Shown here piece after piece: positions 14,685 through 49,864 of a stretch of DNA of 62,416 bases; position 1 is the first letter of the stretch, and each line of letters begins with the position of its first letter. Below the pieces are notes generated by a model. That model was not told the origin of the DNA and ran no database searches. It saw only the letters and a list, made by a program, of their open reading frames with translations. The translations under genes were made by a program, and so were the position numbers. The stretch is from positions 1-62,416 of the forward strand of contig NZ_JASJNC010000011.1 in NCBI RefSeq assembly GCF_030065545.1, read 5' to 3'. The stretch comes from Marinicella marina (lineage in GTDB: Bacteria; Pseudomonadota; Gammaproteobacteria; Xanthomonadales; Marinicellaceae).

Positions 14685-17165
14685 TTACTCAAATCCATTT
14701 ACATAAATTAAATCATTGGCAGGATCATAAATTTCAAATATATAAGCAGATCCTGAGTTGGTTCCATTTTGATCATGCCGATTTGCACCAATCAGAAATT
14801 TACCATTTGATAAACTTACAGAACGACCAAAATAGTCGTTACGATTTCCGTCGTTTGCAATGAGTTTATTACTTCTTCTCCATGTGACTCCATCAAACTC
14901 GTAAATATAAGCAGCTCCCGAACCGCCCTCAACAGCACTTTCAAGATAAGCTCCTATTAATGCACGATTTCCAGATAGACTCACTGAATTACCAAACCTT
15001 TTGGATTCTAAGTTAAAAGGTTCTGTTAACTTTTGACTTTGCTGCCAGATAAAACCATTGTAATCAAACGCATAAACAGCTCCTCCATTATATTGCTCAA
15101 ATGGTGTTCCTATCAAAATTCTATTGTTCGATATACTTACTGATGCTCCAAATTGATCACCGCTGCCATCATCTAAAGCAGTTAACTTCTGGCTTTGAGT
15201 CCAATTAACACCATTAAATTCGTATATGTATGCGGTTCCGGTACTTTTATTAACTTTACCATTACCCATATTGGCTCCAATTATCGCCCTATTACCTGAT
15301 AAATCTACAGCATAACCAAAATTATCACTTGGGTCGTTACTAATAAGACTTTCAGAATTAATCCAACTACTTCCATCATATTCATATATAAAAACTGTGG
15401 CCAGTCCATATGAACCAATAAGAAGGTTATCATTAGATTGGCTTATAGATGAACCAAACTTGTTGTTTGAAACGGGTTGATCAGGTTCTATTTTCTGGCT
15501 TTGAAACAATTTAGAGCCGTTGAAATCGAACACATACACAGAACCCATACTCCCATCAACAATATTTCCTGAGCTGATTAACGCTCGATTGTTTTTTAGA
15601 CTTACTGTGGAGCCAAAGTTGCCATCTATCAGAGCATCCTGTGGAAACAGCTTTTGCCTGAGAATCCAGCCACTGCCATTGTTTTGAAATAAATATGCAG
15701 CACCTACATTGCTACCGAGTGTGGAATCACCATAGGCTCCAATCAATGCTAGATTACCTGATAAACTCACTGAATAGCCAAAGTTACTATTAGCTGCCCC
15801 AGTTTCACCTAACGATATATGTTGTGATTGATTCCAGTTATTACCGTCAAATAAATATGAGGTGGCTGAACCAGATTGAGATCCAGAGATAGCTAGTTGT
15901 CCAACCAACATATGATTTGCAGATAAACTAATATCTATGCCATAGTATCTATCAAATACGTTATTGTCATCTGAAAAAAAATGACTCTGAACCCATGTTA
16001 ATCCGTTAAAGTTGAATATATACGATTTTCCAGGAATAGGCATGTCACGCTGCTCAAATAAACCATTAGGTGCACCAATGGCCAACCTGTCATCATAAAG
16101 ACTTAAAGAACGCCCAAAATTATCATATGCATCAGCATTTTCAGCTATTATTTTTTGATTTTGAACCCAGATAATTCCATCAAAGAAAAACTCATAAACC
16201 GCACCCGACTCAACGATGGTTTCATTAAAATTACTTGTAGGCGAACCAACGTAGGCTTTATCATCTTTAAGAACGACTGACCTGCCAAAGTTATCATCAT
16301 TAACCCTATCATTTGGCAAAATCTGTTGATTTTGAACCCACTCTGAACCATTAAAATCATATATATAGGCATCGCCACTTCGAGGAGCACCAATTAAAGC
16401 TTTATCTCCATCTAAACTTACCGAATACCCAAAAAAATCAATCCCATTTCCAGCTGAAAAATTATGGCTTTCTCTCCAACGTGAGCCATCAAAATCATAT
16501 ATAAAAGCGTCACCTGAGAAGTTAAAATCATCAAAATCAATAAATGCACCAATCAAAACACGGTCACCTGATAAACTTACTGACCACCCAAAATATCCAA
16601 ATGTACCCAAGTTTTCAGGTTTTAATTTTTGAGCCTCATTCCATTTAACCCCATCAAATTCATAAACGTATGCTGCTCCTAAGTTATCATTTATAATACC
16701 TTGGTCACCATATGCCCCTATTACTGCACGGTTTCCATCCAAACTCACGGCTTGGCCAAATCCATCATCAGCAGATATATTTGCAGGTTTTAATCGTGCA
16801 GACTCTATCCAGTTTATTCCATCAAAATCATATACAAAAACCAATCCAGTTCCATCCATAGTCGGGGCGCCAATAAGTGCCCTATTTCCATCAACTGAAA
16901 CACTTCTTGCAAAACGCTCTCCACCACCTGCAATCCCATTAGGAGTTGGAAGAATTTTAGATGTCTGAACAGTTGATTTATAATCATCAAACAATTGTTT
17001 ATCATTGAAATGCGGCTTGTTTCTATGTGAGTTAATTAGCTCTTTTATTGATGTATCATCAATTCTTGTATGTAACAAATCTTCAATATTTCTTGAATAT
17101 GATTTATTTGAAAGAAGTAATATCAGTGAAAGAAAAGAAATTATATGTAATTTATTTTGAAACAA
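14685..17165 (-). CDS. Secreted FG-GAP repeat protein with GFE tail
   Basis: An 826-residue exported protein. A signal peptide (residues 1-24, ending NKSYS) precedes about 13-14 tandem units of ~48 residues. Each carries a core like V-S-L-S-G-N-R-A-L-I-G-A and then G-A-A-Y-I-Y-E-F-D-G-x-x-W, the FG-GAP/integrin-alpha style propeller blade. The protein must fold as two or more beta-propellers, probably with bound Ca2+ at the D-x-G-x-D loops (DDGSGDQFG, DNLGAAY). The last nine residues are DLIYVNGFE, a tail shared with other exported proteins of this window. Partner and ligand are unknown. It is convergent with the defence island and more AT-rich than the genes to its right. Confidence 0.85.
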   Translation of the reverse strand: MFQNKLHIISFLSLILLLSNKSYSRNIEDLLHTRIDDTSIKELINSHRNKPHFNDKQLFDDYKSTVQTSKILPTPNGIAGGGERFARSVSVDGNRALIGAPTMDGTGLVFVYDFDGINWIESARLKPANISADDGFGQAVSLDGNRAVIGAYGDQGIINDNLGAAYVYEFDGVKWNEAQKLKPENLGTFGYFGWSVSLSGDRVLIGAFIDFDDFNFSGDAFIYDFDGSRWRESHNFSAGNGIDFFGYSVSLDGDKALIGAPRSGDAYIYDFNGSEWVQNQQILPNDRVNDDNFGRSVVLKDDKAYVGSPTSNFNETIVESGAVYEFFFDGIIWVQNQKIIAENADAYDNFGRSLSLYDDRLAIGAPNGLFEQRDMPIPGKSYIFNFNGLTWVQSHFFSDDNNVFDRYYGIDISLSANHMLVGQLAISGSQSGSATSYLFDGNNWNQSQHISLGETGAANSNFGYSVSLSGNLALIGAYGDSTLGSNVGAAYLFQNNGSGWILRQKLFPQDALIDGNFGSTVSLKNNRALISSGNIVDGSMGSVYVFDFNGSKLFQSQKIEPDQPVSNNKFGSSISQSNDNLLIGSYGLATVFIYEYDGSSWINSESLISNDPSDNFGYAVDLSGNRAIIGANMGNGKVNKSTGTAYIYEFNGVNWTQSQKLTALDDGSGDQFGASVSISNNRILIGTPFEQYNGGAVYAFDYNGFIWQQSQKLTEPFNLESKRFGNSVSLSGNRALIGAYLESAVEGGSGAAYIYEFDGVTWRRSNKLIANDGNRNDYFGRSVSLSNGKFLIGANRHDQNGTNSGSAYIFEIYDPANDLIYVNGFE

Positions 17166-17249
17166 TTTATGACCTGTGGATTATTGAGCATATGCAAAAC
17201 TCTATCATAAAATGAAATAATCAATAACAAATAGTAAAACAATAATTTG

Positions 17250-17276
17250 AATCAACGCGTTCAGAGACATTGAATC
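17250..17276. repeat. REP-like unit, degenerate
   Basis: It reads AATCAACG, then TTCAGAGACATTGAATC. It is a decayed copy of the unit built on ATCAATGGGG and TCAGAGACGTTGATT found at several places in the window. Confidence 0.4.
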
Positions 17277-17378
17277 GATGTATTGATAGTAAAATGAATC
17301 GACTAGGCCCCAAAAATAATCATGCTAAAGTCTACCTAGATTGATTTCAAGCTCCTGCACTCAACCCTTCGGGCTGCA

Positions 17379-17411
17379 TTGCATGGTTTAATTGCTTTCC
17401 ATGCAATTAAA
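17379..17411. repeat. Overlapping alternative inverted repeats
   Basis: TTGCATGG (17379-17386) pairs perfectly with CCATGCAA (17399-17406). The adjoining TTTAATTG (17387-17394) pairs perfectly with CAATTAAA (17404-17411). The two 8-bp stems interleave and share bases, so only one can form at a time. Confidence 0.6.
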
Positions 17412-17638
17412 TCCGGATCGGGGGTCGGGATGACTTTTGTTTCAAGGGTGGGGAAAAAGAATTTCAAAGCCAAGACCACACTTCATCAATTAATAACCTC
17501 AATCTACAAGCCATTCCTATGAGTCAATCAAATAGCATCATCACTTTAAAATTTGCTCGTGATTGTATAATTGCTATAATCAGATAGTTGAATTGGACTG
17601 ATAATTGGTCCTGCCCATAAACCACAACCCAAATAACC

Positions 17639-19030
17639 ATGAAAAAACTGCTATTGATTCTGACTTTGATGTGCCCTTATTCACTGCTGGCTGGTGATGT
17701 CATTGCTCGATTTGGGTTTGAAATAACTGATGATTTACCGATATTGGATGATCCTACTGGGTTTCCCTCCGATCGCCATACGCCTCGACCCATTGGTTCT
17801 ACTGCTTCTGCCCAGGGGTATTATGAATACTTACCGCCGGGCTATGATGAGGGTGATCAGGATTACCCACTGATCGTTTTCATTCATGGTTTGGGTGAGA
17901 ATGGTGATGGTGATGCTCAATTGGACGATTTGTTGGACAATGGTATTCCTAAACTGATTGATGACAATCAATGGGATGAGACGCGTCCATTTGTGGTGTT
18001 ATCTCCTCAAAACTCGCAAGGCAGTTGTACCCGTTCTGCTGCTATTTTTGACTTCATCAATTATGCCAAAGAACAATATCGCATCAATCCAAACAGGGTC
18101 TATTTAACGGGATTGAGTTGTGGCGCTATTGGTAGTTGGAACTATTTAGGCAATCATACCAATACCCAAATCGCAGCTGTGGTGCCCATTGCTGGAAATG
18201 GTAACAGTGCCTTCACCAATGGTGGTTGTGAGATGAATCGGGTGCCTATTTGGGCTTTTCATGGTGATAATGACAGCGTCGTCAATGTGGGTGGTACGAC
18301 CAACCCAATTAATAACCTTTTGGCTTGTTCTGATCCTGCACCCATCGACACCAGCATGGTGATTTATCCTGGGGTGGGGCATGATTCATGGACCAGAACC
18401 TATAACCTCTCAGCTGGTCATGACATCTACAGCTGGTTCTTGACCAAGAAAAACATGCAAGTGGTGGTTCCTGAGCCGCTGATGGTCGGTAATGACATCA
18501 AGGTGGACTTTGGCATAGCCTCTGGCGCCAGCCCCGATCCATGGAACAATGTATCCAACTTATCCGGTGCTGTCATTAATGCCTTAGATAACCAACTGAG
18601 CAGCACCACTGTGAGTTTTACAATAACTGACTCCTTTGATGGGACCAATCAAAATGGCATCGGCGCTAACAGCTTGGGCCTGCCTGAAATGGTCACTGCC
18701 GATAACTTTTGGGCGGGTTCATTTGATGGTCATGATGCCGCTTTGCTGGAATCTGCTGCGGTCACCATTTCTGGTTTGGATCAAATGGCTACATACGATT
18801 TAGAACTGTATGCGAGCAGAACCGGTGATGATGGTGGACGCTTCAGACTGACTCGTTATACCATTGGAGCCACTTCTTTGGATATGGAAGTTTCAGATAA
18901 CACCGCCGGTAGTGTCATTTTTGATGACATCAGTGGCAGTGACAGCATCATTCTGGAAATAACTGTCAGCCCAGATGGAACAGGGCGCTTTGCTTACTTG
19001 GGTGGGTTAAAGTTATCAAGGATTGAATGA
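17639..19030 (+). CDS. Secreted esterase, PHB depolymerase-like fold
   Basis: A 463-residue exported alpha/beta hydrolase. Residues 1-18 are a signal peptide; the mature protein starts with DVIARFGFE, a nine-residue motif resembling the GFE tails of other proteins here. The hydrolase core (about 55-275) has an oxyanion strand LIVFIHGLGENG, nucleophile S160 in GLSCG, acid D212 (HGDND) and base H248 (PGVGHDSW): a complete triad of the esterase/depolymerase type. Residues ~290-463 form a beta-rich accessory domain (KVDFGIASGASPDPWNN and SGLDQMATYDLELYASR) as seen on many secreted hydrolases. The substrate is unknown; a polyester or acyl-carbohydrate is likely. It stands alone with its own promoter region. 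Confidence 0.85.
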   Translation: MKKLLLILTLMCPYSLLAGDVIARFGFEITDDLPILDDPTGFPSDRHTPRPIGSTASAQGYYEYLPPGYDEGDQDYPLIVFIHGLGENGDGDAQLDDLLDNGIPKLIDDNQWDETRPFVVLSPQNSQGSCTRSAAIFDFINYAKEQYRINPNRVYLTGLSCGAIGSWNYLGNHTNTQIAAVVPIAGNGNSAFTNGGCEMNRVPIWAFHGDNDSVVNVGGTTNPINNLLACSDPAPIDTSMVIYPGVGHDSWTRTYNLSAGHDIYSWFLTKKNMQVVVPEPLMVGNDIKVDFGIASGASPDPWNNVSNLSGAVINALDNQLSSTTVSFTITDSFDGTNQNGIGANSLGLPEMVTADNFWAGSFDGHDAALLESAAVTISGLDQMATYDLELYASRTGDDGGRFRLTRYTIGATSLDMEVSDNTAGSVIFDDISGSDSIILEITVSPDGTGRFAYLGGLKLSRIE

Positions 19031-19188
19031 TTCTATACAATGGGGTGTGATTCAATGGTGGCGAAATAACGATTGGGAAAAATCAAGACAATTCCCTTGC
19101 GTCCTACGGTAGCCTAATCCATCCCAAGCACTTGGATAATACCTCAGTTTAAATTAGAATTAAATCTCACCTCAATGGACAAAACCTA

Positions 19189-20289
19189 ATGGATTACTTC
19201 ATTAAATCAATTTTAACTTTGGCTTCATGCCTGACAGCCTTTACCAGCTTTGCAGGTACGACTTTTACAGTGGAATCAAATACAGATGGCTCTCACCGAA
19301 TCGTTTTGAGCAGTGATGAAGTCAGTGATGTGAAAGCTGCGCAGGCTTTGATATCAGAACGTGCCAATGAGGTTTGTGGTGATCAATTTGTGGTTTTAGG
19401 TCGTTATGAATTTTCAAAGAAAGAATCATTGAATGCTCCTGATAATCAAGAAGCCGTTACTTTTGAATTAGATCAAGAACTGACATGTGAAGATGAACCT
19501 ATTGAACAATCAAGAACTGAGAAAAATTCAGATGTTGTTTTTGTGGCTGATGACCAGCTCAAGCAACAAGCCATGAGTGCCTTCGATACTTACAAAGGAT
19601 TATTGAATAAAAAGAAATACAAAACAGCTTATGAGATGTTAACTGCTGTGAACCAGAACATCTCACCTTATAAGCGCTGGAAGAAAGATAAACAGGCGTT
19701 TCGTAAAAGTGTTGGAGGGGCTGGTGAGTTTGTTGATTTGAAACTGACTTGGTATAAAGACCCACCAAATGCGGCAGGTCCTGGTATTTATGTGGCATTT
19801 GATTATGGTTGTGTTTATCCAAACCTTGAACTCTGTTCAGGGGTATTGATTTTTCATCAAGACGAGTCAGGCGAGTTCAAAGTCATCAGGGAAGAGACCA
19901 ATATGATGGATAAGGAAGCGGCAGCATCCATGTCTGAAGTAAATTTCTCAGTGAGACCACATCAGACAGCAGGCATCAGTTCAGAGCAGTGGGCAAATTA
20001 CTATCAGCTGGCCACCATCAAATACAGTGGTGCTGTTTACAGTTATGAAGACAAGTGTACGACCCAAGTGGCCGCAAAAGACATCAATGCCAATATTTAC
20101 TTTACTCAGCCTTGTCATTCAGCACATCCTGCATGGGTGACCATTTATGTTATTGAGGAGAATCAACACTTAAGACTTGGGCAAATTGGCTATTTTGCTG
20201 GAAGTGAATCTGCCTTTGCAGAAATGTACAAGGCCTATGGTGTGCTCAGAGAGCAAATGATTGAGGATATGAGGCAACCTAGAGATTAA
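19189..20289 (+). CDS. Exported DUF4019-like protein
   Basis: A 366-residue protein with a signal peptide (ends TSFAG, about residue 23). After an N-terminal beta-rich part with two Cys comes a segment (about 125-225: AFDTYKGLLNKKKYKTAYEMLTAVNQNISPYKRWKKDKQAFRKSVGGAG) that fits the DUF4019 pattern, a small NTF2-like periplasmic domain of unknown function. The C-terminal part repeats the style (QWANYYQLATIKYSGAVYSYEDKCTTQVAAKD) with paired cysteines. It is probably periplasmic. No strong ribosome-binding site precedes the ATG. It is followed by small envelope genes in the same direction, but gaps of 130 bp argue against one tight operon. Confidence 0.65.
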   Translation: MDYFIKSILTLASCLTAFTSFAGTTFTVESNTDGSHRIVLSSDEVSDVKAAQALISERANEVCGDQFVVLGRYEFSKKESLNAPDNQEAVTFELDQELTCEDEPIEQSRTEKNSDVVFVADDQLKQQAMSAFDTYKGLLNKKKYKTAYEMLTAVNQNISPYKRWKKDKQAFRKSVGGAGEFVDLKLTWYKDPPNAAGPGIYVAFDYGCVYPNLELCSGVLIFHQDESGEFKVIREETNMMDKEAAASMSEVNFSVRPHQTAGISSEQWANYYQLATIKYSGAVYSYEDKCTTQVAAKDINANIYFTQPCHSAHPAWVTIYVIEENQHLRLGQIGYFAGSESAFAEMYKAYGVLREQMIEDMRQPRD

Positions 20290-20421
20290 TTTGAGCTCAA
20301 CAGGGTAGATGCAAATTGATTTTTCTTTTAGTATTAAAAGATTAGTTTTTAAGAATTCCTATGAATTAATAAGGATAAAGAAACCCAGATTTATAGAAGC
20401 TACTGAAGAAGGAGAATATAC

Positions 20422-20763
20422 ATGGAAGAATTAGGCGTGATTTTTTATTTAATATTGGTTTTTTTACTGTTCTTTGGGGTGCCTATTAAGCACCTAATTG
20501 CGCTGTTTGGCAGTGAAGAAAAATTAGCTCAGCTCTATGAAAACCCAGAGGACTATAGGGACTTGGCTTTGATTCAGGTCGCTAATATGGTGTTTCTGTT
20601 CTTGGTGTATTTAGGGGCCTGGTTGATGTTACGGAATGCAGGCCCGGGTAGTTTCAATGGCATTATGCTTTTACCATTTATAGTCATCTATTTTACTGTG
20701 ATGGTAATCCACCAGAAAAAAATCAACAGACTGGCAAGAAACAATGAGGCGCGTTGGGAATGA
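20422..20763 (+). CDS. Small membrane protein
   Basis: A 113-residue protein with three likely membrane helices: residues 5-22 (VIFYLILVFLLFFGVPI), 52-71 (VANMVFLFLVYLGAWLML) and 80-97 (IMLLPFIVIYFTVMVI). A charged C-terminus (KKINRLARNNEARWE) probably sits in the cytoplasm. A strong AAGGAG lies 8-9 bases before the ATG. No family is recognised. It lies between the DUF4019-like and lipoprotein genes. Confidence 0.7.
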   Translation: MEELGVIFYLILVFLLFFGVPIKHLIALFGSEEKLAQLYENPEDYRDLALIQVANMVFLFLVYLGAWLMLRNAGPGSFNGIMLLPFIVIYFTVMVIHQKKINRLARNNEARWE

Positions 20764-21592: not shown

Positions 21593-21608
21593 ATCAATCA
21601 AATGTACA

Positions 21609-28967: not shown

Positions 28968-30689
28968 TCAATCAAAACCCGAGCGAAAAATAATTTCAGG
29001 GTAATATTCATAAGCGCCAGCATCGTAAGTGCCAAAGGCATTGTTGACGCTGCTCATGTCATGGCCACGGGGGTTACCATTGAGGCCTGGGTGTTGGTCG
29101 GTGAAAAGGTCGTTGTCACAAAAGTCGATGGCATCAGAGGCCAAGGAAGGGCGGTAGTCACCCATGGCTGGATTGATGAAAAGTGGATCATTGGTCAACA
29201 CGGCACCGACGTTGCCGCTGAGGCTGGCTGACTCATGCACAGTGGCACAATCGATTTGGGCGGTGGCTGGGCCATTAAAATTAAATATGGTGCCGAAGTC
29301 CCAAATGATGCTGTTGAACACATTAATTAACTGGCTGCTGTTGCTGTTGTTGGTGGTGAAAAAATTGTCCACGTTGTTGTTAACCACTGTATTGAAACCG
29401 AAGTCCAGTTGTGAGGCCTGGTTGTTATCGCCATCCAGGTAGAACAAATGAGGGGCCGCGGATTGTGCACCCAGACCATCATTATTGCTGATTAAATTGC
29501 CTTCAAGTCGCAAGTAAGCGCCGTTGTCCAGCACAACCCCAGCCGTATTGATAGACAGGTTGTTTGCAACCAGTGTTTGCGAAATATCGACTGAGCCACC
29601 TGCAGAAATGTGTCCAGTAGCTCCAGTGGCTGTAAAAGACAGGGTTTCGTTTCTTGAGAGTTCAGAACACAAGTCTTGATTTGAATATTGGCAACCCTGT
29701 CCAGACCGGCCCATGGTTAAAGTGGCTTGATCAGTCACCACGAATCCGCCACCGTCCCCGTCAGCAGAATTGAATTGCAAATGGGTGTTGCTCAACATGG
29801 CTGTGGTGTTTGCGCCAGCCAGATACAAGCCACCACCGGCCAACTCATTGAACGTCGTCGCAAAGTTTCCGATAATTCGAGCCGGATTATCGGTGTTGCC
29901 TTGTGCGACCAATTGAGCTCCAGTTTGCAAGTACACCCCACCGCCACGCTGGGCTTGGTTGTTGCTGATGCCTTCATCGTCACGGCCAGCAACTTCAGCG
30001 CCGCTGTCACTGTGAACGGCACAACCCATACCAGCGAAGATTCCGCCGCCATTGAAGTTGGCCTGGTTGTGGTGAATGGTGCTTTGGGCATCGATGCTTA
30101 CATAAGCATCATTGGAACAATAAATGCCGCCACCATAGCCGGTGACGCTGTTGTCACGCACTTCAGTATTTTCCAAGGCCAATCGCGCTTCATCGCCAAA
30201 CACATGGATACCCCCACCTTCATTGCCCTGGTTGTCACGAACCACGGAGTTACGCAAAATCAAATTGGAATTACCGGTCACCTTAATTCCGCCTGCTGAG
30301 GCAAAGCTGGTGTTGTTGCCAGCATAAATGTCAAAGTTTTCAATAATGACGGTACTGACAATGGTCAAATCAGCATCCACTTCGATCACCGTGTTGTTAT
30401 TGCCATTGAGCCCACTCCATCGGGTCTTCTGTGAGCCCATGACATTATTTTCTGCATCTTGGCAACTGTCATAACCGCCTTTGATTACTTTGATTTTTTC
30501 AATGGTGAAATTGTTGCTGTGGACTTGCTCATTAGTGACCCGCATTTCAATGTCGCTGTCTTGATAGGCAGGGAAAATGTTGTCGTAGTCACAATCAGGC
30601 GTGTTACCGACTGTAACAAAGGCCATGGCCATGGAATGACCGACCAATAAACCAAAACCTACTAACTTTTTAACTGTGATTGCTTGCAT
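28968..30689 (-). CDS. Secreted right-handed beta-helix protein with GFD tail
   Basis: A 573-residue exported protein (signal peptide ends around HSMAMA, residue 23). Residues 90-480 carry repeating rungs such as GGIHVFGDEARLALENTEVRDNSVTG, GGGIYCSNDAYV and GGGFVVTDQATL, the parallel beta-helix pattern of choice-of-anchor Q and polymorphic outer-membrane-type proteins. Near the C-terminus GNPRGHDMSSVNNAFGTYDAGAYEY is the usual closing of such proteins. The last nine residues are EIIFRSGFD, the shared tail. No catalytic site is visible, so an adhesin or structural role is more likely than an enzyme. It is divergent from a membrane-bound regulator. Confidence 0.85.
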   Translation of the reverse strand: MQAITVKKLVGFGLLVGHSMAMAFVTVGNTPDCDYDNIFPAYQDSDIEMRVTNEQVHSNNFTIEKIKVIKGGYDSCQDAENNVMGSQKTRWSGLNGNNNTVIEVDADLTIVSTVIIENFDIYAGNNTSFASAGGIKVTGNSNLILRNSVVRDNQGNEGGGIHVFGDEARLALENTEVRDNSVTGYGGGIYCSNDAYVSIDAQSTIHHNQANFNGGGIFAGMGCAVHSDSGAEVAGRDDEGISNNQAQRGGGVYLQTGAQLVAQGNTDNPARIIGNFATTFNELAGGGLYLAGANTTAMLSNTHLQFNSADGDGGGFVVTDQATLTMGRSGQGCQYSNQDLCSELSRNETLSFTATGATGHISAGGSVDISQTLVANNLSINTAGVVLDNGAYLRLEGNLISNNDGLGAQSAAPHLFYLDGDNNQASQLDFGFNTVVNNNVDNFFTTNNSNSSQLINVFNSIIWDFGTIFNFNGPATAQIDCATVHESASLSGNVGAVLTNDPLFINPAMGDYRPSLASDAIDFCDNDLFTDQHPGLNGNPRGHDMSSVNNAFGTYDAGAYEYYPEIIFRSGFD

Positions 30690-34144: not shown

Positions 34145-35530
34145 TCATTGCCAACAATATTCAAAAGGTATGGTGGGATTTAAATCTAAATCAAAAGGAT
34201 TGCCGAAATAGGTGTTACCGGAGGCCTGTCCGAGCACGTTGCGAAATCGAAACGCCCAACAGGAGTTGATGGTGCTGTCCACGGCGTTATCAATCAAGGT
34301 TAAGTTGGTAAAATCTCTGAAGGCCAAGTAGCCATCCATCAGCACGTTTCTGCGAATGTCCAAGTCAGCACTTTGGTACATGTAAAACCCACAGCCATCG
34401 CACACATTATCGTGAATGAAAGTGGTCGCTGGGTTGGTTTTGGGCGATGAATTAGAGTAACCAATGATGCCAACTTTTAAGTTAACAGTTAATTCTCTGA
34501 CTTTGATGTAGTTATATCTGATGGTTTGGTCGGCATTTTTCCAATACACCACAGAACCATCTGTGCCACGCCCAATGCCGCGTTGTTCCATGGTGTTGTA
34601 CTCAATCAGTACATTACGCCCGTCGGTATTAACAATATGACCGCCACCATAGTTGATATTGGTATCAATGGTTCCGTTGGCGTAGAACAAATTATTGCGA
34701 ATTTGAATGTCACGACTTTCATAACTTAAACTTTCAATATCAATACCAAATTGTGGTGGTGTGCCGTTGATGTCGTGAATTTCATTGTTCTCTATCAACA
34801 GCCGAATGGCGCCCACTACTGAAATACCTTGGCGGCGGTTGTAATCGAATTCGTTGTTGCGGATGGTGGTATCTAAAGTTGAGGTGTTTGAATTGGCTAC
34901 CAATAAGACGCCATCGCCAGTGGCATGTGATAAATACATGTCTTCAATCAATACATATTGGCTGGCTTTGACACAAATCAAATGTCCTTCATCGTGAGCG
35001 GTTGCACCGTCTTGTCTGGGTGTGTAAATGTGGGTCTCACGATCGCCGCGAAGAGCGCCGCCACGAATGATGACATTAGAACGGGAGGTAACATCTATCA
35101 CACAATAATTCCATTTATCGTTGGTGTTCATCTGTATCACAGCAGCGGCATCGAGTTCAAAAACCATGTCATCACGCAGCACAATACCGGCTTGATAGAT
35201 GTCGTTACCGTATTTTCCTACCAGGTAGTTACCTGCCGGTAATCTAATCGTGCTGTATCCGGCTGCTAATGCCCAATCAATTGCTGCTTGAATATTGTCA
35301 GTGTTAACAGGTGCTGGACCCTGTCCGTCATTACGAATGCCCCACCGCTGTAATTCTATCGTGTATGTGTTGCCGCTAATTACCGGTAGGTAAGGGCGAG
35401 GCCCGCCTGGTTGTTGTTGAAAATCATTCACAAAAATATAGTCTAGACCTGCAATACCAGTCGCAGACCAACTTAATGAGCCCGTAATCAATACCCAAAT
35501 ATAAATCCAAGACAAAGTCTTATTATTCAT
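34145..35530 (-). CDS. Secreted right-handed beta-helix, pectate-lyase-3-like
   Basis: A 461-residue exported protein. The signal peptide ends near residue 27 (ATGIA), and directly after it comes DYIFVNDFQ, close to the GFE motif found on the C-termini of others. Residues ~58-105 (WGIRNDGQGPAPVNTDNIQAAIDWALAAGYSTIRLPAGNYLVG) are the N-terminal turn of the pectate-lyase-3/GH28-like superfamily, followed by beta-helix rungs (NVIIRGGALRGDRETHI, LIENNEIHD, IQIRNNLFYANG). A polysaccharide lyase or depolymerase role is possible, but no catalytic set can be named. It is convergent with the DCC gene. Confidence 0.82.
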   Translation of the reverse strand: MNNKTLSWIYIWVLITGSLSWSATGIAGLDYIFVNDFQQQPGGPRPYLPVISGNTYTIELQRWGIRNDGQGPAPVNTDNIQAAIDWALAAGYSTIRLPAGNYLVGKYGNDIYQAGIVLRDDMVFELDAAAVIQMNTNDKWNYCVIDVTSRSNVIIRGGALRGDRETHIYTPRQDGATAHDEGHLICVKASQYVLIEDMYLSHATGDGVLLVANSNTSTLDTTIRNNEFDYNRRQGISVVGAIRLLIENNEIHDINGTPPQFGIDIESLSYESRDIQIRNNLFYANGTIDTNINYGGGHIVNTDGRNVLIEYNTMEQRGIGRGTDGSVVYWKNADQTIRYNYIKVRELTVNLKVGIIGYSNSSPKTNPATTFIHDNVCDGCGFYMYQSADLDIRRNVLMDGYLAFRDFTNLTLIDNAVDSTINSCWAFRFRNVLGQASGNTYFGNPFDLDLNPTIPFEYCWQ

Positions 35531-39951: not shown

Positions 39952-41220
39952 ATGAAACAAAAGAAATTAACCAAAACAATCAGTGGCATCCTCAGTTTAG
40001 GCACTTTTTGTCTTGCTCATGCTGGGGGAGAGACAATAACAGTCACATCAGTCAGTGATGAGCCCGAGGCAGGCTTGATAACACTGCGTGAAGCGATTGC
40101 GATCAGTAACGATGTCTCAGGTGCTGCAATCGAGTTTGACAGTGAAGTGTTTTCAGTGCCACAAACCATCACTCTCAGTAATGGCAACATGCTGATCAGC
40201 GAGAGTGTAACTATTAATGGGCCAGGCAAGGATTTACTGACCATTGATGGCGCGCAAAACAGCAAAATTTTTCGCATAGACAACGATGACGAGTCTCTTA
40301 TCAATGCGGAGATTAATGACATCACTTTAACCAATGGCCAGACCAATGCTGATGAAGATCGAGCCGGTGGTTGTATATTTTCTTTTGAAAACTTGACCTT
40401 AAACAACTCAACAATAAGCAACTGTCGAAGCGATGGTAGGGCCGGTGCCATTTTGGCACGTTTTGGCAGCTTGAACATCAATAACAGCACGGTATCGGAT
40501 AACTTCGCAGGCAATGATGGTGGTGGTGTTTACTCAAGGCAGTCAGTAACAGTCATCAGCAACTCCACCATCAGTAACAACACCGCTGTCGTTTCTGGAG
40601 GTGGCATCTATGCCATGCGAGGCAGTATTATCGAGATCGTAAACAGCACCATTTCTCAAAATGATATCAGGAGGCCAGAGAATAATCGTGGTGGCGGTGT
40701 CTTTTTAAAAGAGGGCAACACGCGTTTGAACTTGGCAAATACCACGGTTTTCAGTAACACGGGGGAAGGGATATTCATCCGGGATTCAAGCACAATTAAT
40801 ATCACCAACAGCATCATCGCGAGTAACTCTACTGGTGATTGTGATTTCAGCCAGATCAATGGTAACTCAGCCAACCAAAATAACCTCGATACCGATGGCA
40901 GCTGTGATGTCTTTGCCAGCAATCACATCACGGTTGTTGACCCACTTTTGGATGTTTTGAGAGATAACGGCGGCTTGACCATGACGCATTTACCTTTAGA
41001 TGACAGTCCTGTGATTGATGCGGGTGATGACTTTCTGTGTACTGAATTTGATCAGCGTGGACAAGCACGCCCACAAGATGGGGATGGTGATGGCTTTAAC
41101 ATTTGTGATATTGGGTCGGTCGAGTTATTGCAGTCTGAAGGTAACTTGATTTTTAAAGATGGGTTTGATGAGCTGGCTTGTGACTTGGAACCCACTAAAG
41201 GTAACCGGGGTTGTCGATGA
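39952..41220 (+). CDS. Secreted beta-helix, choice-of-anchor Q-type, with GFD motif
   Basis: A 422-residue exported protein. The signal peptide ends around LAHAGG (residue 25). TITVTSVSDEPEAGLITLREAIAISND is the classic start of choice-of-anchor Q proteins. Beta-helix rungs follow (NLTLNNSTISNCRSDGRAGAIL, GGGVYSRQSVTVISNSTIS, GGGIYAMRGSIIEIVNSTIS), then SPVIDAGDDFLCTEFDQRGQARPQDGDGDG, the standard closing. Near the C-terminus NLIFKDGFD (398-406) repeats the GFE motif, here followed by 16 more residues with two Cys. Its stop overlaps the next small gene (ATGA), so the two are coupled. Confidence 0.85.
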   Translation: MKQKKLTKTISGILSLGTFCLAHAGGETITVTSVSDEPEAGLITLREAIAISNDVSGAAIEFDSEVFSVPQTITLSNGNMLISESVTINGPGKDLLTIDGAQNSKIFRIDNDDESLINAEINDITLTNGQTNADEDRAGGCIFSFENLTLNNSTISNCRSDGRAGAILARFGSLNINNSTVSDNFAGNDGGGVYSRQSVTVISNSTISNNTAVVSGGGIYAMRGSIIEIVNSTISQNDIRRPENNRGGGVFLKEGNTRLNLANTTVFSNTGEGIFIRDSSTINITNSIIASNSTGDCDFSQINGNSANQNNLDTDGSCDVFASNHITVVDPLLDVLRDNGGLTMTHLPLDDSPVIDAGDDFLCTEFDQRGQARPQDGDGDGFNICDIGSVELLQSEGNLIFKDGFDELACDLEPTKGNRGCR

Positions 41221-43937: not shown

Positions 43938-46763
43938 ATGATGAAAAAAATTGTTTTTTTATTCAGCTTAATGCTAGCCAACAACAGTTTCAGCCAAGAC
44001 TCTTATTATGATTATCAGCCTATCAAGTCATCTGATACGCAACCCTATTTTAAAGTGCTGACAAAAGGCACGGATATCGATAGGATTCCACTGTTATTAA
44101 CCACAGTTGATGCTGAAATCAACGGTTTTATGGCTGAGGTGAAGGTGACACAATATTATAAAAACGATGGTTCTGTTCCATTGGAGGCACAATATGTTTT
44201 TCCAGGTTCGACTGATGCGGCTGTTCACCAGGTTGAAATGGTTGTAGGTGATAGGAGAATAATAGCCGATATTCAAAAAAAGAAAGAAGCCAAGGAAACT
44301 TACCTCAAAGCAAAAGAGGCGGGTAAAACCACCAGTTTATTGGAACAATCTGACCCAGGCCTATTTACCATGAACTTGGCCAATATACTGCCTGGAGATG
44401 ACATACAAGTTAGTTTGAGTTACACCGAAAAAATCATACCATCACAAGGAAAATACACATTCACATACCCAGCCATTGGAAGACCATCTGTACTGGCCAG
44501 AGGCAACACAGCACCGCAGTCTTACGCACCGGGAAAGAACAGTGGATTTGATTTGTCTGTTGTTATTAATTCACCCCATCAAATAGCTGGTATCATCAGT
44601 AAAAATCATCTTGTTGAAATTGAGTACCAAAGCGATAAGTCTGCCAACATTCTTCTTGATGAGTCAGAGCAACTAGAATTTAACCAAGACTTTATTTTCG
44701 AGTATGATCTGCGAGAACAGGCAGTAGACAGCGGATTGTTGTTGCATCAAGATGAGGAGAGTGGCTATTTTTTACTCACAGTTCAACCACCTGCTGCGTT
44801 TAAGACTACAGAAATCATTCCCAGAGAGTACGTATTTGTGGTTGATTCATCAGGTTCAATGACTGGTACACCCATTGAGAACGCTAAATATATTACCCAG
44901 TCTTTGATGTCAGATTTAGCCCCTGAAGAATTTTTCAATGTGGTACTGTTTGCGGGCGGTTCTAAGGTTTTCAGCCAAACGCCACAACAAGTCAATCAAG
45001 CCGATATCAAAAAAGCGATGAAAATGGTATCTGTGAGTTCTGCTGGTGGCGGTACAGATTTATTCAGCGCGTTAAAATCTATCAATGATATTCCTCGGGT
45101 TGAGGGTGTCTCAAGGACCCTAGTCATCATGACAGACGGTGCTATTTCTGTGCCTGATCACACCATTGATTTGTTGCTTGAAACCCCAGATCAAAATGTT
45201 TTTGTGATAGGTGTTAGTGGTGGATACAGTAACGATGTTGCTACCATTAAAGCCCTTGCTTTGGCTGGTCAAGGCCAACCATTTTTTATCAGTGATGATG
45301 AAGAAGACATCGCCAAAATCCAAGAACAGTTTTTAGACTATGTTCGTTATCCCTTACTGAGTAACATTAATATTGAGGCCATTGGATTTGAGGGTTTAGA
45401 TATCCAGCCAACCCACGTAGTGGATTTGTTCGCACAACGTCCTGTTTTTATTACGGGTAAATTTGATGGCACACAAAGAGGTAGTCTGAGAATCACAGGT
45501 GATGGAAACGGCCTTAAGTATGATGAGTTTTTTGATTTAGACGGTATAGCAGATCAGGACAACCAATCCATTAGGTATTTGTGGGCTCGGGAAAAAATTA
45601 ATCGTTTGTCATTGAACCAAAATACCAATGAAAACGAAATCACATCACTGGGTTTAGAATATCACTTGATGACTCCATTCACTTCATTTGTCGCAGTTGA
45701 TCAAATTGTGCGGAACGAGGGTGGCGTTGAAAAAGTAACTCAACAACCCAGTGTCAGTGGCTATGGTTTTGCTGAAAATGATTTTAGAATAGAATTAAAC
45801 CGGAAGTTTTTTGAGTTGCCAATGATTCCCAAGCCCATTACACCTTCTTTGGTTCAGCTTGATCAAAGACAAAACATTACATTCATAATGGGCCAAGACA
45901 AGTCAAGCGACAATCTGTTCTATCAGTTGGCCACAGACTTATTTAATAATCATCCAGACCATAAAACGACACAAGTGGTTCATTTAGATGACTTGGCTCA
46001 GATAAAGTCTTATCTTGAAACACACCAAGGTGATATGCCATGGGGTGTGGTCAACGTTGTGGCTCACAGTTCTCCTTGGAGTGGCATTCAACAAGACCAT
46101 TCTGAATCAGTGGGTAGTACGCTTAATTATTTCAACGTCAATAACTTACTTAATGAAACAAAACAGTCACCATTATCAGACCAAATAATTGATGGACACA
46201 GCGAAATACGTTTAATAGGTTGTGCAATAGGTGGACAGAAAAATTTGTTAAATGCGCTGTCTCAATATTTTGGTGGCAATGACCAACAACGGCCACAGGT
46301 AAAAGCGCCAAATGACTATGTTTTCTTGAGAAATGAATTCTCTCAACTGGCTTTGTATGGATTAGAAAATCCATGGTTTTTGAGTCACGAAAAAGCGGTA
46401 TCAAATGACCTCGAATTCATTAAGCAAATCCGTGCTCATGCACCGGAATCAAAATACATAAGCAGCCAGCATTGGACTTTGTCACCGGTGGAAATTAGTT
46501 TACCTGTTGATTGGATGACCGAGTTGTCAGAGGAGGCCTTAAAAATAGTGCTGTCACAACAACTTGAACTGATTCGGTATTTGGATGATTTATCGGCATC
46601 AATTGATGATTTTAAATGGCGAATAGATGTCAGTAATCAATCAAATCCTGTGCTGATTGGAAGCTCTGTTTTGGTGAAATTTAAGCTACCCGAAGGTGAT
46701 ATCAGCCATTTGTTAGAAAACTTAGATTTTGATAACCCTGACATGATGTCCAGTAGCCATTAA
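43938..46763 (+). CDS. Secreted VIT-VWA protein with caspase-like C-terminal region
   Basis: A 941-residue exported protein; the signal peptide ends LANNSFS (residue 20). A VIT domain spans about 38-165 (INGFMAEVKVTQYYKNDGSVPLEAQYVFP, ETYLKAKEAGKTTSLLEQSDPGLFTMNLANILPGD). The VWA domain starts near 295 with an intact MIDAS, D303-S-S-G-S307. So far this is the common VIT-VWA architecture. The part from ~650 is unusual: strand VVNVVAHSS with H710, helix, then EIRLIGCAIGG with C762 and a following helix (NLLNALSQYFGG), the layout of caspase/CHAT or DUF4347-type peptidase-like folds. No sortase or LPXTG tail is visible. The catalytic dyad is inference. Two ATGs lie at 43938 and 43941. Confidence 0.85.
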   Translation: MMKKIVFLFSLMLANNSFSQDSYYDYQPIKSSDTQPYFKVLTKGTDIDRIPLLLTTVDAEINGFMAEVKVTQYYKNDGSVPLEAQYVFPGSTDAAVHQVEMVVGDRRIIADIQKKKEAKETYLKAKEAGKTTSLLEQSDPGLFTMNLANILPGDDIQVSLSYTEKIIPSQGKYTFTYPAIGRPSVLARGNTAPQSYAPGKNSGFDLSVVINSPHQIAGIISKNHLVEIEYQSDKSANILLDESEQLEFNQDFIFEYDLREQAVDSGLLLHQDEESGYFLLTVQPPAAFKTTEIIPREYVFVVDSSGSMTGTPIENAKYITQSLMSDLAPEEFFNVVLFAGGSKVFSQTPQQVNQADIKKAMKMVSVSSAGGGTDLFSALKSINDIPRVEGVSRTLVIMTDGAISVPDHTIDLLLETPDQNVFVIGVSGGYSNDVATIKALALAGQGQPFFISDDEEDIAKIQEQFLDYVRYPLLSNINIEAIGFEGLDIQPTHVVDLFAQRPVFITGKFDGTQRGSLRITGDGNGLKYDEFFDLDGIADQDNQSIRYLWAREKINRLSLNQNTNENEITSLGLEYHLMTPFTSFVAVDQIVRNEGGVEKVTQQPSVSGYGFAENDFRIELNRKFFELPMIPKPITPSLVQLDQRQNITFIMGQDKSSDNLFYQLATDLFNNHPDHKTTQVVHLDDLAQIKSYLETHQGDMPWGVVNVVAHSSPWSGIQQDHSESVGSTLNYFNVNNLLNETKQSPLSDQIIDGHSEIRLIGCAIGGQKNLLNALSQYFGGNDQQRPQVKAPNDYVFLRNEFSQLALYGLENPWFLSHEKAVSNDLEFIKQIRAHAPESKYISSQHWTLSPVEISLPVDWMTELSEEALKIVLSQQLELIRYLDDLSASIDDFKWRIDVSNQSNPVLIGSSVLVKFKLPEGDISHLLENLDFDNPDMMSSSH

Positions 46764-46842
46764 ACAGTGATAATCCAGGGGCAGTTGAGTGGGGGTTTTT
46801 TTGCGAAATATAATCAGAACTATTGATTATTGGTTAAGAACA

Positions 46843-46884
46843 AATCAATGGGGTTAAATCAATGGAGTCAGAGACGTTGATTCA
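46843..46884. repeat. REP-like unit, best copy
   Basis: AATCAATGGGGTT, then AATCAATGG, then AGTCAGAGACGTTGATTC. It has a full match to the unit with a duplicated left half. Confidence 0.55.
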
Positions 46885-46929
46885 CTTACTGACCTGAGAA
46901 ACCGAACGATTCGATAACTCGGATACATC

Positions 46930-46968
46930 GCTCATTTTCCTCTCTCAAGGGGGGAGAGTGAAATGAGC
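46930..46968. terminator. Long hairpin between convergent genes
   Basis: GCTCATTT (46930-46937) pairs with AAATGAGC (46961-46968); inside that CTCTC pairs with GAGAG, giving about 15 bp with one mismatch and one wobble and a G-rich loop. It sits between the ends of the VIT-VWA and patatin genes and may stop transcription from both sides. No T-run is seen. Confidence 0.5.
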
Positions 46969-46988
46969 TGCCTTGGATAAATGGTGAA

Positions 46989-48458
46989 TTAACGCCGATT
47001 TTTATATAAATGTTTGACGCTGTGATCGCCGTGGTGGTCGAGGATTTCGTCGAGTTTCTGGCCAACCCTTGAACAATTCCTTATCTGTTCTAATTTTGGC
47101 CAGGTGGCTCTTTCACCTTCTATCACCAATTCTTTGATTTCATCTGAATTCAGTTGGCCCAATAGTTTTTGCGGGTTAACAAAACTGAAACTGGGAATGA
47201 TGTTGATGTCGCCTTTGTACTCTTGCGCCACAGCCGAGTGAAAAATACTCATGGCTTGGCCCACTTTAGGTAATTTACGCAGGTAGCGTCGGCTGAAGTT
47301 TTCTCCGCCTTTTAATACCTCATGAGTAGACAGTCGCACCACGTTTTTAACGCCTTCAGGAACGGGTATAAATTCTTCACCTTTCATGATGGCCAGTGAT
47401 AAAGGGTTGGCTTGGCTGACTATATAATGATTAACTCCATACAGTCTAGCCAGCCTCTTGGCTGGTAAATCATCGGTCACTGCACCATCCACCCATAAGC
47501 GATCCGGTAAATAGGGCTGGGCCTCGCCGTAGACATTTTTCGCCATCAACATGACCGGTTCAAAGATACCCGGTACGGCACAAGATGCCATCACTGCCGA
47601 GCGCACAAAAACATTCGGCGAGGTGATGGCATTCATCAACCTGGATTTCTGGTGTTCTTCATAGGGTGCGATGGTGATACTGATCATTCTGCCGGTGTTT
47701 TCATAGGCTTCTTGAAAAGTAACATCTGGAATGATGGATTCCAGCATCAGTCTTAATGATTCTGAATCGGTTTGTTTACGTATCAGTCTTTTGCGGTATT
47801 TATCAATTTCAGCCTGAAGGGGATCAATCACACTGTCATTTTTTAACACTGCGGTTAATTCTTCATCAGTTTTAGTGCCCAGTAAGGCCGCTGAAATAGA
47901 ACCAGCGCTGGATCCTGAAATGACATTCGGAATCAGGTCATGTTCAAACAATGTCTTTATCACACCGCGATGAAAATGCCCCAGTGAGCCGGCACCACTG
48001 AGCATCAAAGCGGAACGACCAAAACAATGGCTGGCGCGCTCAAAAAAATCAAGTTTATCCTGGCCAGTGATGTCTTTGGACTCAGGCACGGTGGAAATGT
48101 ATTCGAGTGCGTCAACGATTTCATCAACGTATTCAGTGATGAGTTTTTTGGTGCCAAATTTTGCTAATTCGTAAAGGCTTGACTTGCCCATACCGCCTTG
48201 GTTGCCATGGATGCCCTCGTTCAATGCGAATAACAGCCCAACATCATCTTTTTCCTGCCTGAGCTGTCTTAAGGTGTCTAATCGGGTACGAATGTTGACA
48301 TAATCGTAGCTGTTGGATTCTTCTTTGTGTTTCCAGGCTTCAAAACCAGAAAGGATGTCATGTTTAAGAGCAGAGTCCTTCCATTCTTCATAGCTGTTGG
48401 CACGGCGCATCTTATATTCAAGATACCTGAGGTTTAGGCTGTTTGAAATGGATGTCAT
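46989..48458 (-). CDS. Patatin-like phospholipase with DUF3336
   Basis: A 489-residue lipase. Residues 1-150 are the DUF3336 domain seen before patatin domains in triacylglycerol lipases (YEEWKDSALKHD). The patatin domain starts at RSALMLSGAGSLGHFHRGVIKTL (oxyanion loop GAGSLG). The catalytic dyad is S184 in SGSSAG and D324 in WVDGAVTDDLP. C-terminal residues ~390-489 have YLRKLPKVGQAMSIFHS, typical for the family. It hydrolyses acyl esters in lipids; no signal peptide is seen, so it is probably cytoplasmic or membrane-associated. It is monocistronic. Confidence 0.92.
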   Translation of the reverse strand: MTSISNSLNLRYLEYKMRRANSYEEWKDSALKHDILSGFEAWKHKEESNSYDYVNIRTRLDTLRQLRQEKDDVGLLFALNEGIHGNQGGMGKSSLYELAKFGTKKLITEYVDEIVDALEYISTVPESKDITGQDKLDFFERASHCFGRSALMLSGAGSLGHFHRGVIKTLFEHDLIPNVISGSSAGSISAALLGTKTDEELTAVLKNDSVIDPLQAEIDKYRKRLIRKQTDSESLRLMLESIIPDVTFQEAYENTGRMISITIAPYEEHQKSRLMNAITSPNVFVRSAVMASCAVPGIFEPVMLMAKNVYGEAQPYLPDRLWVDGAVTDDLPAKRLARLYGVNHYIVSQANPLSLAIMKGEEFIPVPEGVKNVVRLSTHEVLKGGENFSRRYLRKLPKVGQAMSIFHSAVAQEYKGDINIIPSFSFVNPQKLLGQLNSDEIKELVIEGERATWPKLEQIRNCSRVGQKLDEILDHHGDHSVKHLYKNRR

Positions 48459-48598
48459 GGGTTAAGCAACAATTAAATTTAGAACGGTGTTTTATTATAG
48501 TCAAAAAATCATACTTTTATAGTTGATAAAAATCAATCTAGCCTCAGAAGTCAGTTTGATTGGGTATTATGTTAGGCTTACCAATTGAATATTTGGGC

Positions 48599-49864
48599 TC
48601 ATTCAAATCCGTTCGCGAACAGAAAATCAATATCATATGCATATGCAGCACCAGATTCATCAGCAATGCTGTTCTCTGAATAACTGCCTATGAGCACATC
48701 GGTTTCGCTTACTGTATAGGCAAAACCAAAGCCAAAGCCTGAGTCAGCTTTTGGGTCACTGGGCAAAAAGGAGTTTTTATACTGCCACTGACCAGCAGTC
48801 TGTCCATAATGGTGAACAACAATAAATTCTGGACTCTCATCTGGATCAATCACAGCAGATACCAACAAGTTATTACCATAGCTATTCAAGCCAAGTATGC
48901 TTCCGTCAATGTACTCATTATTGGGTGGGCTGATGCTTGAGGTGGTTTGCCAAATGTCATTGACTTTGCTGTAAACATCTAAGAAAAAAGTTGAATCGGA
49001 GGGATTGTCTCGTATTGAGCGCCTCAAAATGACTTGTCCGCCGCTGGTAGCTATGCCGGAGTAGGTGTATTGGTTTGATTCTGACTCAGGTTTGATGCGC
49101 TGATCTAACTGCCATGTATCCTTCTCATCCAAGCTGTAAATATACACTGCACCTCTTTGTATGCCATCCTCGGTTTGTTCCAAGTACGATGAAATCACCA
49201 AAAGGTTATTGTTCAATGAAATCACATCACCAAAATCACCTCCAGCACTGGGCTCTACAGGCATCAGTTTTTGGCTGAAGGTCCACAGATTATTGGTCTT
49301 TGTATAAACGTAAACAACGCCTCGACTGATGCCGAAATCATTATTTTCACTGGGCGCAGCGATGATCAAAAACTGATCATTCATATCAACCACTTGACCA
49401 AACATAGGAAAAAGCTGATCACCCGTGTAGTCAATTATTTGAGTTTCAATCCAGTTGTCATTAATTTTTTCGAAAACATAAGCTTTGCCGTGATTTTCGT
49501 TGATGGTGGTTTGACCAAATGATGAACCGATTAAAATGGTGTTGCCAGATATAGCTGTGCTGCGCCCAAAAGTATCACTGCCAGCCGCATCACTGGCTGT
49601 TAAGAATGCTGTCTCTTGCCACACGTTTTCAGCATTTTTCTCGAAAACATAAGCAGCACCGGCGTCGGTTTCACCACTGTGGGTGTGGTACATGGCGCCG
49701 ATGACTGAAATTTCATGCTCAATGTCCATGCTCACACCGAAGTAACTGAAAAACCGAGCATCAGATGCTTTGAGTTTTTGGTCTTCAAACTGTTGGTAAT
49801 CTTGGGCTTGGGCAGTTAACAAAAGTTGGGCCAGCAAGTATGCTGAAATGATGGGTTTTCTCAT
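48599..49864 (-). CDS. Secreted FG-GAP repeat protein with GFE tail
   Basis: About 421 residues from ATG 49864, which has AAGGA at good distance and is followed by a signal peptide (RKPIISAYLLAQLLLTAQA). A longer frame to 49960 lacks a good start. Repeats such as FGRSTAISGNTILIGSSFGQTTINENHGKAYVFEK and FGDVISLNNNLLVISSYLEQTEDGIQRGAVYIYS form one seven-bladed-propeller-like domain of the FG-GAP type. The C-terminus is DFLFANGFE, the shared tail. It is a shorter relative of the FG-GAP protein at 14685-17165. Ligand unknown. Confidence 0.83.
   Translation of the reverse strand: MRKPIISAYLLAQLLLTAQAQDYQQFEDQKLKASDARFFSYFGVSMDIEHEISVIGAMYHTHSGETDAGAAYVFEKNAENVWQETAFLTASDAAGSDTFGRSTAISGNTILIGSSFGQTTINENHGKAYVFEKINDNWIETQIIDYTGDQLFPMFGQVVDMNDQFLIIAAPSENNDFGISRGVVYVYTKTNNLWTFSQKLMPVEPSAGGDFGDVISLNNNLLVISSYLEQTEDGIQRGAVYIYSLDEKDTWQLDQRIKPESESNQYTYSGIATSGGQVILRRSIRDNPSDSTFFLDVYSKVNDIWQTTSSISPPNNEYIDGSILGLNSYGNNLLVSAVIDPDESPEFIVVHHYGQTAGQWQYKNSFLPSDPKADSGFGFGFAYTVSETDVLIGSYSENSIADESGAAYAYDIDFLFANGFE

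Follow-up and report, generated by a model that had tools for sequence, protein, structure and literature searches.

A short end-of-chain tag on varied exported proteins of Marinicella marina and its co-occurrence with one kind of type II secretion system

The window analysed here (62,416 nucleotides) is the entire contig C3 of the genome of Marinicella marina (G000; 3,458,019 bases in 23 contigs), and six exported proteins encoded in it carry a nonapeptide of the form I-F-x-x-G-F-E close to one end of the chain. This motif recurs in the genome far beyond chance, sits mostly at the C-terminus of exported proteins of varied kinds, shows no excess outside the order in a sample of the class, and co-occurs with one kind of type II secretion system (T2SS), called type A below. 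From sequence comparison we give a probability of roughly 0.58 to the reading that the nonapeptide serves as a portable, linear targeting signal for the type-A T2SS, which would read it and carry folded cargo across the outer membrane. That type A moves the tagged proteins is what we infer from the evidence below.

The DNA pattern NTNTTYNNNNNNGGNTTYGA, encoding [hydrophobic]-F-x-x-G-F-[ED], matched the M. marina genome 115 times (54+61), versus 15 times (10+5) for the reversed pattern; followed by a stop codon it matched 44 times (23+21), versus 2 for the reversed control. Context was read for 93 distinct sites of the 115, of which 50 lay no more than 25 residues from the end of frames of at least 100 residues, 34 in shorter frames and 9 at other places in frames of that length. 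The chain ended exactly with the motif at 29 of the 50 C-terminal sites, and 1-21 residues followed it at the other 21. Position -2, free in the pattern, was D in 43/50 of these sites and the residue before G, also free, was D or N in 40/50; since both recurred unasked, the full tag is taken to be D-[LVI]-I-F-x-[DN]-G-F-[ED]. Translated frames from a crude caller gave a similar picture of position. In 41 stretches of the genome (809 kb including the window, 692 frames), which were picked around motif sites so that tag frequency is inflated and within-protein positions are unaffected, 39 strict matches to [ILVMF]F..GF[ED] were found: 33 lay within 21 residues of the chain end, 20 of these ending it exactly, and of the remaining 6 two, both from L050, were in proteins that by eye were unlike the tagged exports. 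A relaxed motif was found in 1,037 frames of five genomes at 55 C-terminal, 5 N-terminal and 6 other sites, and 150 permuted motifs in the same frames gave means of 0.97, 1.6 and 6.4; the permuted maxima were 40 C-terminal, perhaps from a near-copy of the motif, and 5 N-terminal. The earlier note on this DNA had named chance scatter in mid-chain, or equal frequency in cytoplasmic proteins, as the outcome that would speak against a tag, and the counts, taken with crude frames and a simple signal-peptide rule, favour the tag. An identical tagged C-terminal fragment was also seen at the ends of two contigs (L036, on contig C7, and L037 12-371), and is probably a repeat that broke the assembly.

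One genome per species was scanned for D-x-x-F-A-[DN]-G-F-E-stop, giving at least 114 stretches, from which 80 loci were taken. Among the matches listed, the tag was found in Marinicella, Dokdonella, Pseudofulvimonas, Rudaea, Pseudolysobacter and many Lysobacterales bins, with Marinicella litoralis, Dokdonella immobilis and Pseudofulvimonas gallinarii as named organisms; records labelled Alcanivoracaceae, Thiolapillus and Xanthomonas metagenome bin (labels as recorded) also occurred, and most of the organisms were labelled Gammaproteobacteria or groups within them. A true stop followed the tag in 80/80 loci, and TGG, which the pattern also allowed, in 0/80. After 21 carriers whose frame runs off the locus had been dropped, 59 complete carriers remained, 58 of them with at least 100 residues. 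A simple signal-peptide rule was passed by 48/59 complete carriers versus 71/220 neighbours (Fisher p 1e-11), the carriers being of any length and the neighbours being the 239 background frames of at least 200 residues in the same loci less 19 that end tag-like.

The carriers had a mean column identity of 7%. The commonest NCBIfam family, choice-of-anchor Q, was found in 13/59 carriers (best 25 of 49 families) and the commonest Pfam family in 5/59 (best 25 of 57 families); other best-ranked families were reprolysin-like metallopeptidases (at most 5), glucose/sorbosone dehydrogenase (3), and FG-GAP, Kelch and subtilase (2 each). The ExeM/NucH nucleases have one tagged member, L427 (573 bits against a cut-off of 300). 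Some of the 59 carriers are related to one another and no domain is common to all, which, together with the signal-peptide result, agrees on a wider sample with the observation in the window that the carriers are exported proteins of unrelated folds. Neither an NCBIfam family covering the tag itself nor a curated CTERM signal model was found in the six window proteins (E up to 1) or among the best 25 of the 49 carrier families. Choice-of-anchor matches and matches to rhombosortase- and myxosortase-dependent M36 proteins occur among the carriers; in L388 the M36 matches reach only to residue 1009 of 1024 and so do not include the tag. A comparison of the genes around tagged ones in low-copy genomes gave no recurring neighbour of interest, and the DUF1501/DUF1800-like pairs that do recur near tagged genes are there because members of the pair bear the tag themselves.

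The tag is patchy inside the order, with no excess outside it in the class sample. Within a set of 41 relatives, exact C-terminal tags numbered 12-45 in each of the 18 genomes from the genus itself; in the same family genus g3 had 44-58, g4 9-11, and G018 of g2 none. A tag match was found in 83 of 219 genomes of the order that were at least 90% complete, and genera within one family differed greatly. The class sample from beyond the order, 226 genomes, gave 123 matches versus 109 for the reversed pattern; the 123 fell in 79 of the genomes, with 0-6 per genome over the sample.

Two kinds of the secretin GspD, A and B, were distinguished by profile searches and a tree. For type A the layout gspC-gspD-gspE-gspF, followed by ftsE- and ftsX-like genes (read by eye), was found in G000, G020 and G033, and the cluster of M. 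marina itself contains T2SSC, PDZ, secretin, GspD N0, T2SSE and T2SSF domains (Pfam). A GspC with a PDZ-like end (by eye) stood directly before gspD-A in 31/40 genomes read, and T2SSC and PDZ were found in three tested GspC proteins by Pfam; a different frame was found there in G019, G021, G023 and G352, and in G361, G283, G276, G035 and G410 none, or a wrong frame picked up by the script. By sequence, a GspC-A profile matched GspC chains of solved structure, OutC and PulC among them. For the M. marina GspC itself the AlphaFold model was of low confidence (mean predicted local distance difference test score, pLDDT, 66.9; predicted template-modelling score 0.30) and was not used. A high-scoring GspG (E ~1e-50 or better) was found in addition to a low-scoring type-B one in G000, G029, G293, G417, G314, G343 and G437, and alone in G410, and in G437 and G410 it lies no more than 8 kb from gspD-A; GspG types were assigned by score and place, without a tree. 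With the diagnostic domains of GspC, GspD, GspE and GspF and the major pseudopilin GspG all present, the type-A machine is, to judge by its genes, a true T2SS. The type-B operon comprises gspE, gspF, genes for pseudopilins, gspD and, by position, a GspN-like gene; T2SSC gave no match in the one protein tested. In the GspD tree the 11 rows labelled B that came from operons, of 12 so labelled, grouped on a single branch (100/100), separate from the type-A rows. Behind the type-B operon an exported protein with VLIYPYYT near its start was seen in G000 and G020, and with VLIYPFYT in G031; G029 has there an exported protein with a similar signal region (loci L156, L164, L159 and L162). Genes read as PPIase (peptidyl-prolyl isomerase), ABC (ATP-binding cassette) transporter and sugar transferase come next, and this arrangement was not seen in G032 (L158).

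The presence of type A was compared with that of the tag in the 219 genomes, a genome counting as tagged when it had at least five exact C-terminal matches. Type A and the tag were both found in 56 genomes, type A with fewer tags in 27, the tag without type A in 2 and neither in 134; in other words, type A was in 56/58 tagged genomes versus 27/161 others (Fisher p 8e-29, descriptive only because the genomes are related). With a threshold of three tags the four counts were 60/23/2/134. Type A was assigned from fragments at contig ends in G009 and G024 and from a fragment in G014, G293 was counted as without GspD-A, and nine rows of family f2 (G271, G286, G292, G313, G317, G355, G401, G409 and G421), whose match is confined to query residues 264-602 (E ~1e-70) and in which the tag was not found, were left out of type A. 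Tag and type A also go together within mixed families, weakly in f8: in f2 (63 genomes) just 2 were tagged, and these 2 and no others had full type A, in f12 (61 genomes) 9 had type A and all 7 tagged genomes were among them, and in f8 (24 genomes) 3 had type A and 3 were tagged, with 2 having both. At the genus level these three mixed families gave 7/3/1/41 (p 7e-6). In f1, 24 of 25 genomes had both and the last had neither. All 25 genomes of f9 had type A and 2 were tagged, and 23 of the 27 type-A genomes with fewer tags belong to this family, the others being G030, G314, G410 and G437; the 2 exact tags of G030 were both real on reading. G293, which is tagged, lacks GspD-A and is 90% complete, has a GspG scoring like that of type A. 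Among tag-free genomes, G018 had no GspD match, G025 none over the cut-off, and G031 and G036 had type B and no type A; type B was rejected as a general reader of the tag because it is present in the last two. The earlier note had proposed to look for a gene present only in genomes with many copies, and a T2SS subclass, type A, was found to co-occur with the tag.

Copies of the tag elsewhere than at the C-terminus were also read. Within the first 70 residues 5 sites were found, versus a permuted mean of 1.6 and a permuted maximum also of 5, which is weak alone; strict copies just behind the signal peptide were found in L047 (M. marina), L108 (G029) and L307 (G371), from three bacterial families. 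The suggestion from the window that the tag is not purely C-terminal is therefore upheld by individual sites and only weakly by enrichment. One more copy lies between the protease part and later domains of L072, a protein read as a subtilase. The L108 carrier is presumably a DUF1800 protein, and DUF1501 and DUF1800 are likewise names that we take to apply to the recurring protein pairs, the kinship of the proteins coming from BLAST. In these pairs the first protein bears the tag at its C-terminus in G000 and G020; in G029 the second protein bears it, at its N-terminus. The presumed DUF1501-like carriers start with MTTRRQFLQG and MKKMNRRAFLQS, which look like Tat signals. Tandem tags were found at the C-terminus in L051 9017-10309 (-) of M. 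marina and in L120 5200-6834 (-) of G030, and in L425 an IFKNSFE variant precedes the exact tag, also in tandem at the C-terminus; the arrangement looks like the addition of another copy after an existing one. Genomes also differ in dialect: IF.HGFE was found in 8/9 sites read in G020 and LF..GFE in 5/5 read in G040, and in f9 the forms were IF.DGFES (G371), [VL]F.DRFE (G331, two in 398 kb) and IF.DRFE (G032), the latter two with a short tail behind. G032 is tag-free by the exact pattern and has type A; reading of its sites gave one LFSDGFEG, with an extra residue, and one IF.DRFE variant.

Carriers would reach the periplasm by Sec or Tat, in line with the signal peptides that, as expected of T2SS substrates, 48/59 have by the simple rule. 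The tag would then hang exposed behind the folded chain, or at times before it or within a linker, where the type-A T2SS would read it and then move the folded protein over the outer membrane. In the one carrier modelled, the FG-GAP protein of the window at 48602-49864 (AlphaFold, mean pLDDT 80.5), the last seven residues (415-421) have pLDDT below 50 and lie behind the last strand, so the tag end is predicted to be disordered and exposed. The natural reader would be the PDZ domain of GspC-A, which is a guess. Reading by this domain would suit the internal and N-terminal copies as well, because strand addition needs no free carboxylate. Recruitment to type A appears to be the simplest account because the tag is linear, exposed in the one model, present at both ends, borne by proteins with Sec- or Tat-like starts and tied to a GspC-PDZ system. 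That nine residues at either end or in a linker are enough to recruit a folded periplasmic protein, with dialects having evolved along with the machine, is put forward tentatively and at somewhat less than even odds. According to published work, VesB secretion in Vibrio cholerae depends on the PDZ domain of GspC, which also captures a VesB Ig-fold chimera (PMC12369372), PelI interacts with GspC and GspD (PMC7949064), and ExeM and Xds, which carry GlyGly-CTERM, were found on cells and in the medium (PMC6219818).

Several points weigh against this reading. PDZ domains classically take a hydrophobic C-terminal residue and the tag ends in E or D; a PDZ-like GspC end is also present in G437, which, like G410, has type A and no tag that we found. 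T2SS are widespread beyond the order, and the tag has no excess there. T2SS was also the first and sole candidate machine profiled, and another gene could fit equally or better. The tree is not wholly clean, G410 being a long branch and the twelfth B-labelled row (L266, a second locus of G437) falling among the A rows on a very long branch, which makes its label unsure. Counting in the nine partial f2 matches changes the table to 56/36/2/125 (p 7e-25). In f9 exact tags are few (0-8 in each genome), and the three genomes read, G032, G331 and G371, have variant or extended forms of it, the last being itself among the tagged genomes of the family. G326 is a real exception to the link, having 21 tag matches (control 0; 3/5 read were clear) and only a type-B-like GspD and GspG. 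A text search of the ExeM paper for T2SS terms gave none (PMC6085458).

The foremost rival explanation is that type A exports the carriers by other cues and that the tag afterwards fixes them to the cell surface or to a polymer on it. Such a docking tag, acting after secretion, would by analogy be a membrane-free counterpart of GlyGly-CTERM, and surface retention would fit the data nearly as well as recruitment to type A, although we hold it to be considerably less probable. Choice-of-anchor is the name for domains that precede varied anchors, and the choice-of-anchor Q family, found in 13/59 carriers, ends in the window case a few residues before the tag. The genomes with type A and no tags found (G437 and G410) would also suit docking, and so would the high scores that T2SS components obtain in profiling of GlyGly-CTERM genomes (PMC3237569). 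No candidate surface receptor was found, though no search was made for one. Loss of type A need not remove a docking tag as long as its receptor is kept, yet the tag and type A co-vary. It is unlikely, more so than docking, that an unrelated outer-membrane or periplasmic factor co-inherited with type A reads the tag. G326, tagged without type A, would be explained by it, and T2SS alone was profiled; such a factor would nevertheless have to follow type A each time in f2, f12 and, weakly, f8, where type A comes and goes. A tail with a general physical role, for example guarding the C-terminus against tail-specific envelope proteases, would agree with a short, terminal and exported tag, yet it leaves the type-A link, the N-terminal and linker copies and the strict sequence unexplained, and is very improbable. 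The idea that the motif recurs by homology, as the opening or closing strand of an extracellular beta domain that the carriers share, is the least credible: by eye the motif begins or precedes a jelly-roll-like segment at L060 residue 773 and near the N-terminus of L033, yet a shared-domain origin is largely refuted and was rejected because the carriers have no domain in common, and besides their 7% identity and small top families (13/59 in NCBIfam, 5/59 in Pfam, best-ranked families), 29/50 copies in M. marina are the exact chain end, and the single model places the tag after the folded portion.

The nonapeptide can be compared with the sorting signals already described. PEP-CTERM/exosortase and LPXTG/sortase also use terminal sorting tags on different exported proteins, often many in each genome. 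PEP-CTERM, MYXO-CTERM and LPXTG tags have a membrane segment and a processing enzyme, and to our knowledge none of them has the I-F-x-x-G-F-E sequence. As the earlier note had remarked for the window, no membrane helix lies behind the motif, since 29/50 C-terminal tags of M. marina end the chain and 21 have 1-21 residues after them; the motif is therefore not a membrane-helix tag of the GlyGly-CTERM, PEP-CTERM, LPXTG or MYXO-CTERM kind, and membrane anchoring of this sort was rejected. The C-terminal domain of type IX secretion is folded, has some 70-100 residues and occurs in Bacteroidota; the tag has nine residues, is predicted to be disordered in one model and was found in organisms mostly labelled Gammaproteobacteria. 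Type I secretion uses a C-terminal signal with no cleavable N-terminal signal peptide, and the tag was found mainly on carriers passing the signal-peptide rule (48/59 versus 71/220 neighbours). The note's proposal of a sorting, anchoring or secretion tag is supported by the chain-end position, the varied exported carriers and the lack of a helix, and the function itself is a likely reading of these.

Several likenesses can be drawn from the literature. MYXO-CTERM with myxosortase is likewise a terminal sorting tag on different exported proteins, often many in one genome (PMC11980579). GlyGly-CTERM is also a C-terminal tag on several exported enzymes per genome with a link to T2SS by profiling (PMC3237569), and its carriers include ExeM-type nucleases (PMC6219818); it differs in being tripartite (a glycine/serine-rich motif, a hydrophobic region and positive residues) and cut by an intramembrane protease, whereas the nonapeptide is followed by neither helix nor basic tail, is in many cases the very end of the chain and is also found at N-termini. 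The PelI/Pel3 loops and the VesB Ig-fold with the EpsC PDZ domain resemble it as information on folded substrates that GspC or GspD could read (PMC7949064, PMC12369372), but they are loops or folds of single substrates and the nonapeptide is one linear sequence on dozens of carriers. The GspN-linked lipoprotein motif of Acinetobacter is short, linear, near the mature N-terminus and linked to T2SS, and it sits behind an acylated cysteine and needs GspN (PMC12802150); the nonapeptide, in contrast, lies mainly at C-termini and accompanies the GspC-PDZ type-A system. Among the matches listed for the open-licence literature there was no publication on the motif, and a membrane-free nonapeptide on dozens of carriers that tracks one T2SS subclass was found neither there nor among the best-ranked NCBIfam families.

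In the window itself all six nonapeptides reported in the earlier note were encoded in open frames exactly where it had placed them, and 3/6 (at 28971, 41143 and 48602) have the strict form. Two of these strict copies end the chain with no residue after: EIIFRSGFD (28971-28997, -) belongs to an exported protein with only weak POMP/Chlam_PMP-like matches in NCBIfam and Pfam scans (28968..30689, -), and DFLFANGFE (48602-48628, -) to an exported FG-GAP repeat protein (48599..49960, -; Pfam PF14312, E 1.1e-38). The third, NLIFKDGFD (41143-41169, +), has 16 residues after it and lies a few residues behind the choice-of-anchor Q domain (NCBIfam NF041518 at residues 330-392, with 66 bits against a cut-off of 25) of an exported beta-helix protein (39952..41220, +; Pfam PF13229). 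DLIYVNGFE (14688-14714, -), with Y for F, is also C-terminal with no residue after, on an exported FG-GAP protein with 13 FG-GAP_2 stretches (14685..17165, -; Pfam PF14312, E 3.6e-136). The two looser copies stand behind the signal peptide: DVIARFGFE (17696-17722, +), with A for F and 19 residues before it, directly follows that of an exported polyhydroxyalkanoate-depolymerase/phospholipase-like esterase (17639..19030, +; Pfam PF02230, with NCBIfam NF050058 below the cut-off), and DYIFVNDFQ (35417-35443, -), with D for G, Q for E and 29 residues before it, is on an exported right-handed beta-helix protein (34145..35530, -; Pfam PF13229, E 9.8e-16).

Apart from the tagged genes, a defence island was seen at 911-13826 (+) of the window, with an AbiEi/AbiEii pair, a type I HsdR-like nuclease, a type IV-like restriction protein, a PDC-S14 candidate, a C5-cytosine methyltransferase, an AAA protein (PDC-M26A-like) and a DUF2357/PD-(D/E)XK protein. 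Two exported Sortilin-Vps10/BNR-repeat proteins of ~1,090 residues, both without the tag, are encoded at 50162-53437 (-) and 55230-58499 (+) and flank 53624-55087 on both sides.

How T2SS choose their cargo is an old open question, and the tag may be the simple address label that the type-A machine was thought to lack. If this is true, T2SS would have an address code as in other secretion systems, the tag would serve as a predictor of the secretome of Marinicella, Dokdonella, Pseudofulvimonas and their kin, and it would give a short handle for sending proteins out of Gram-negative cells.

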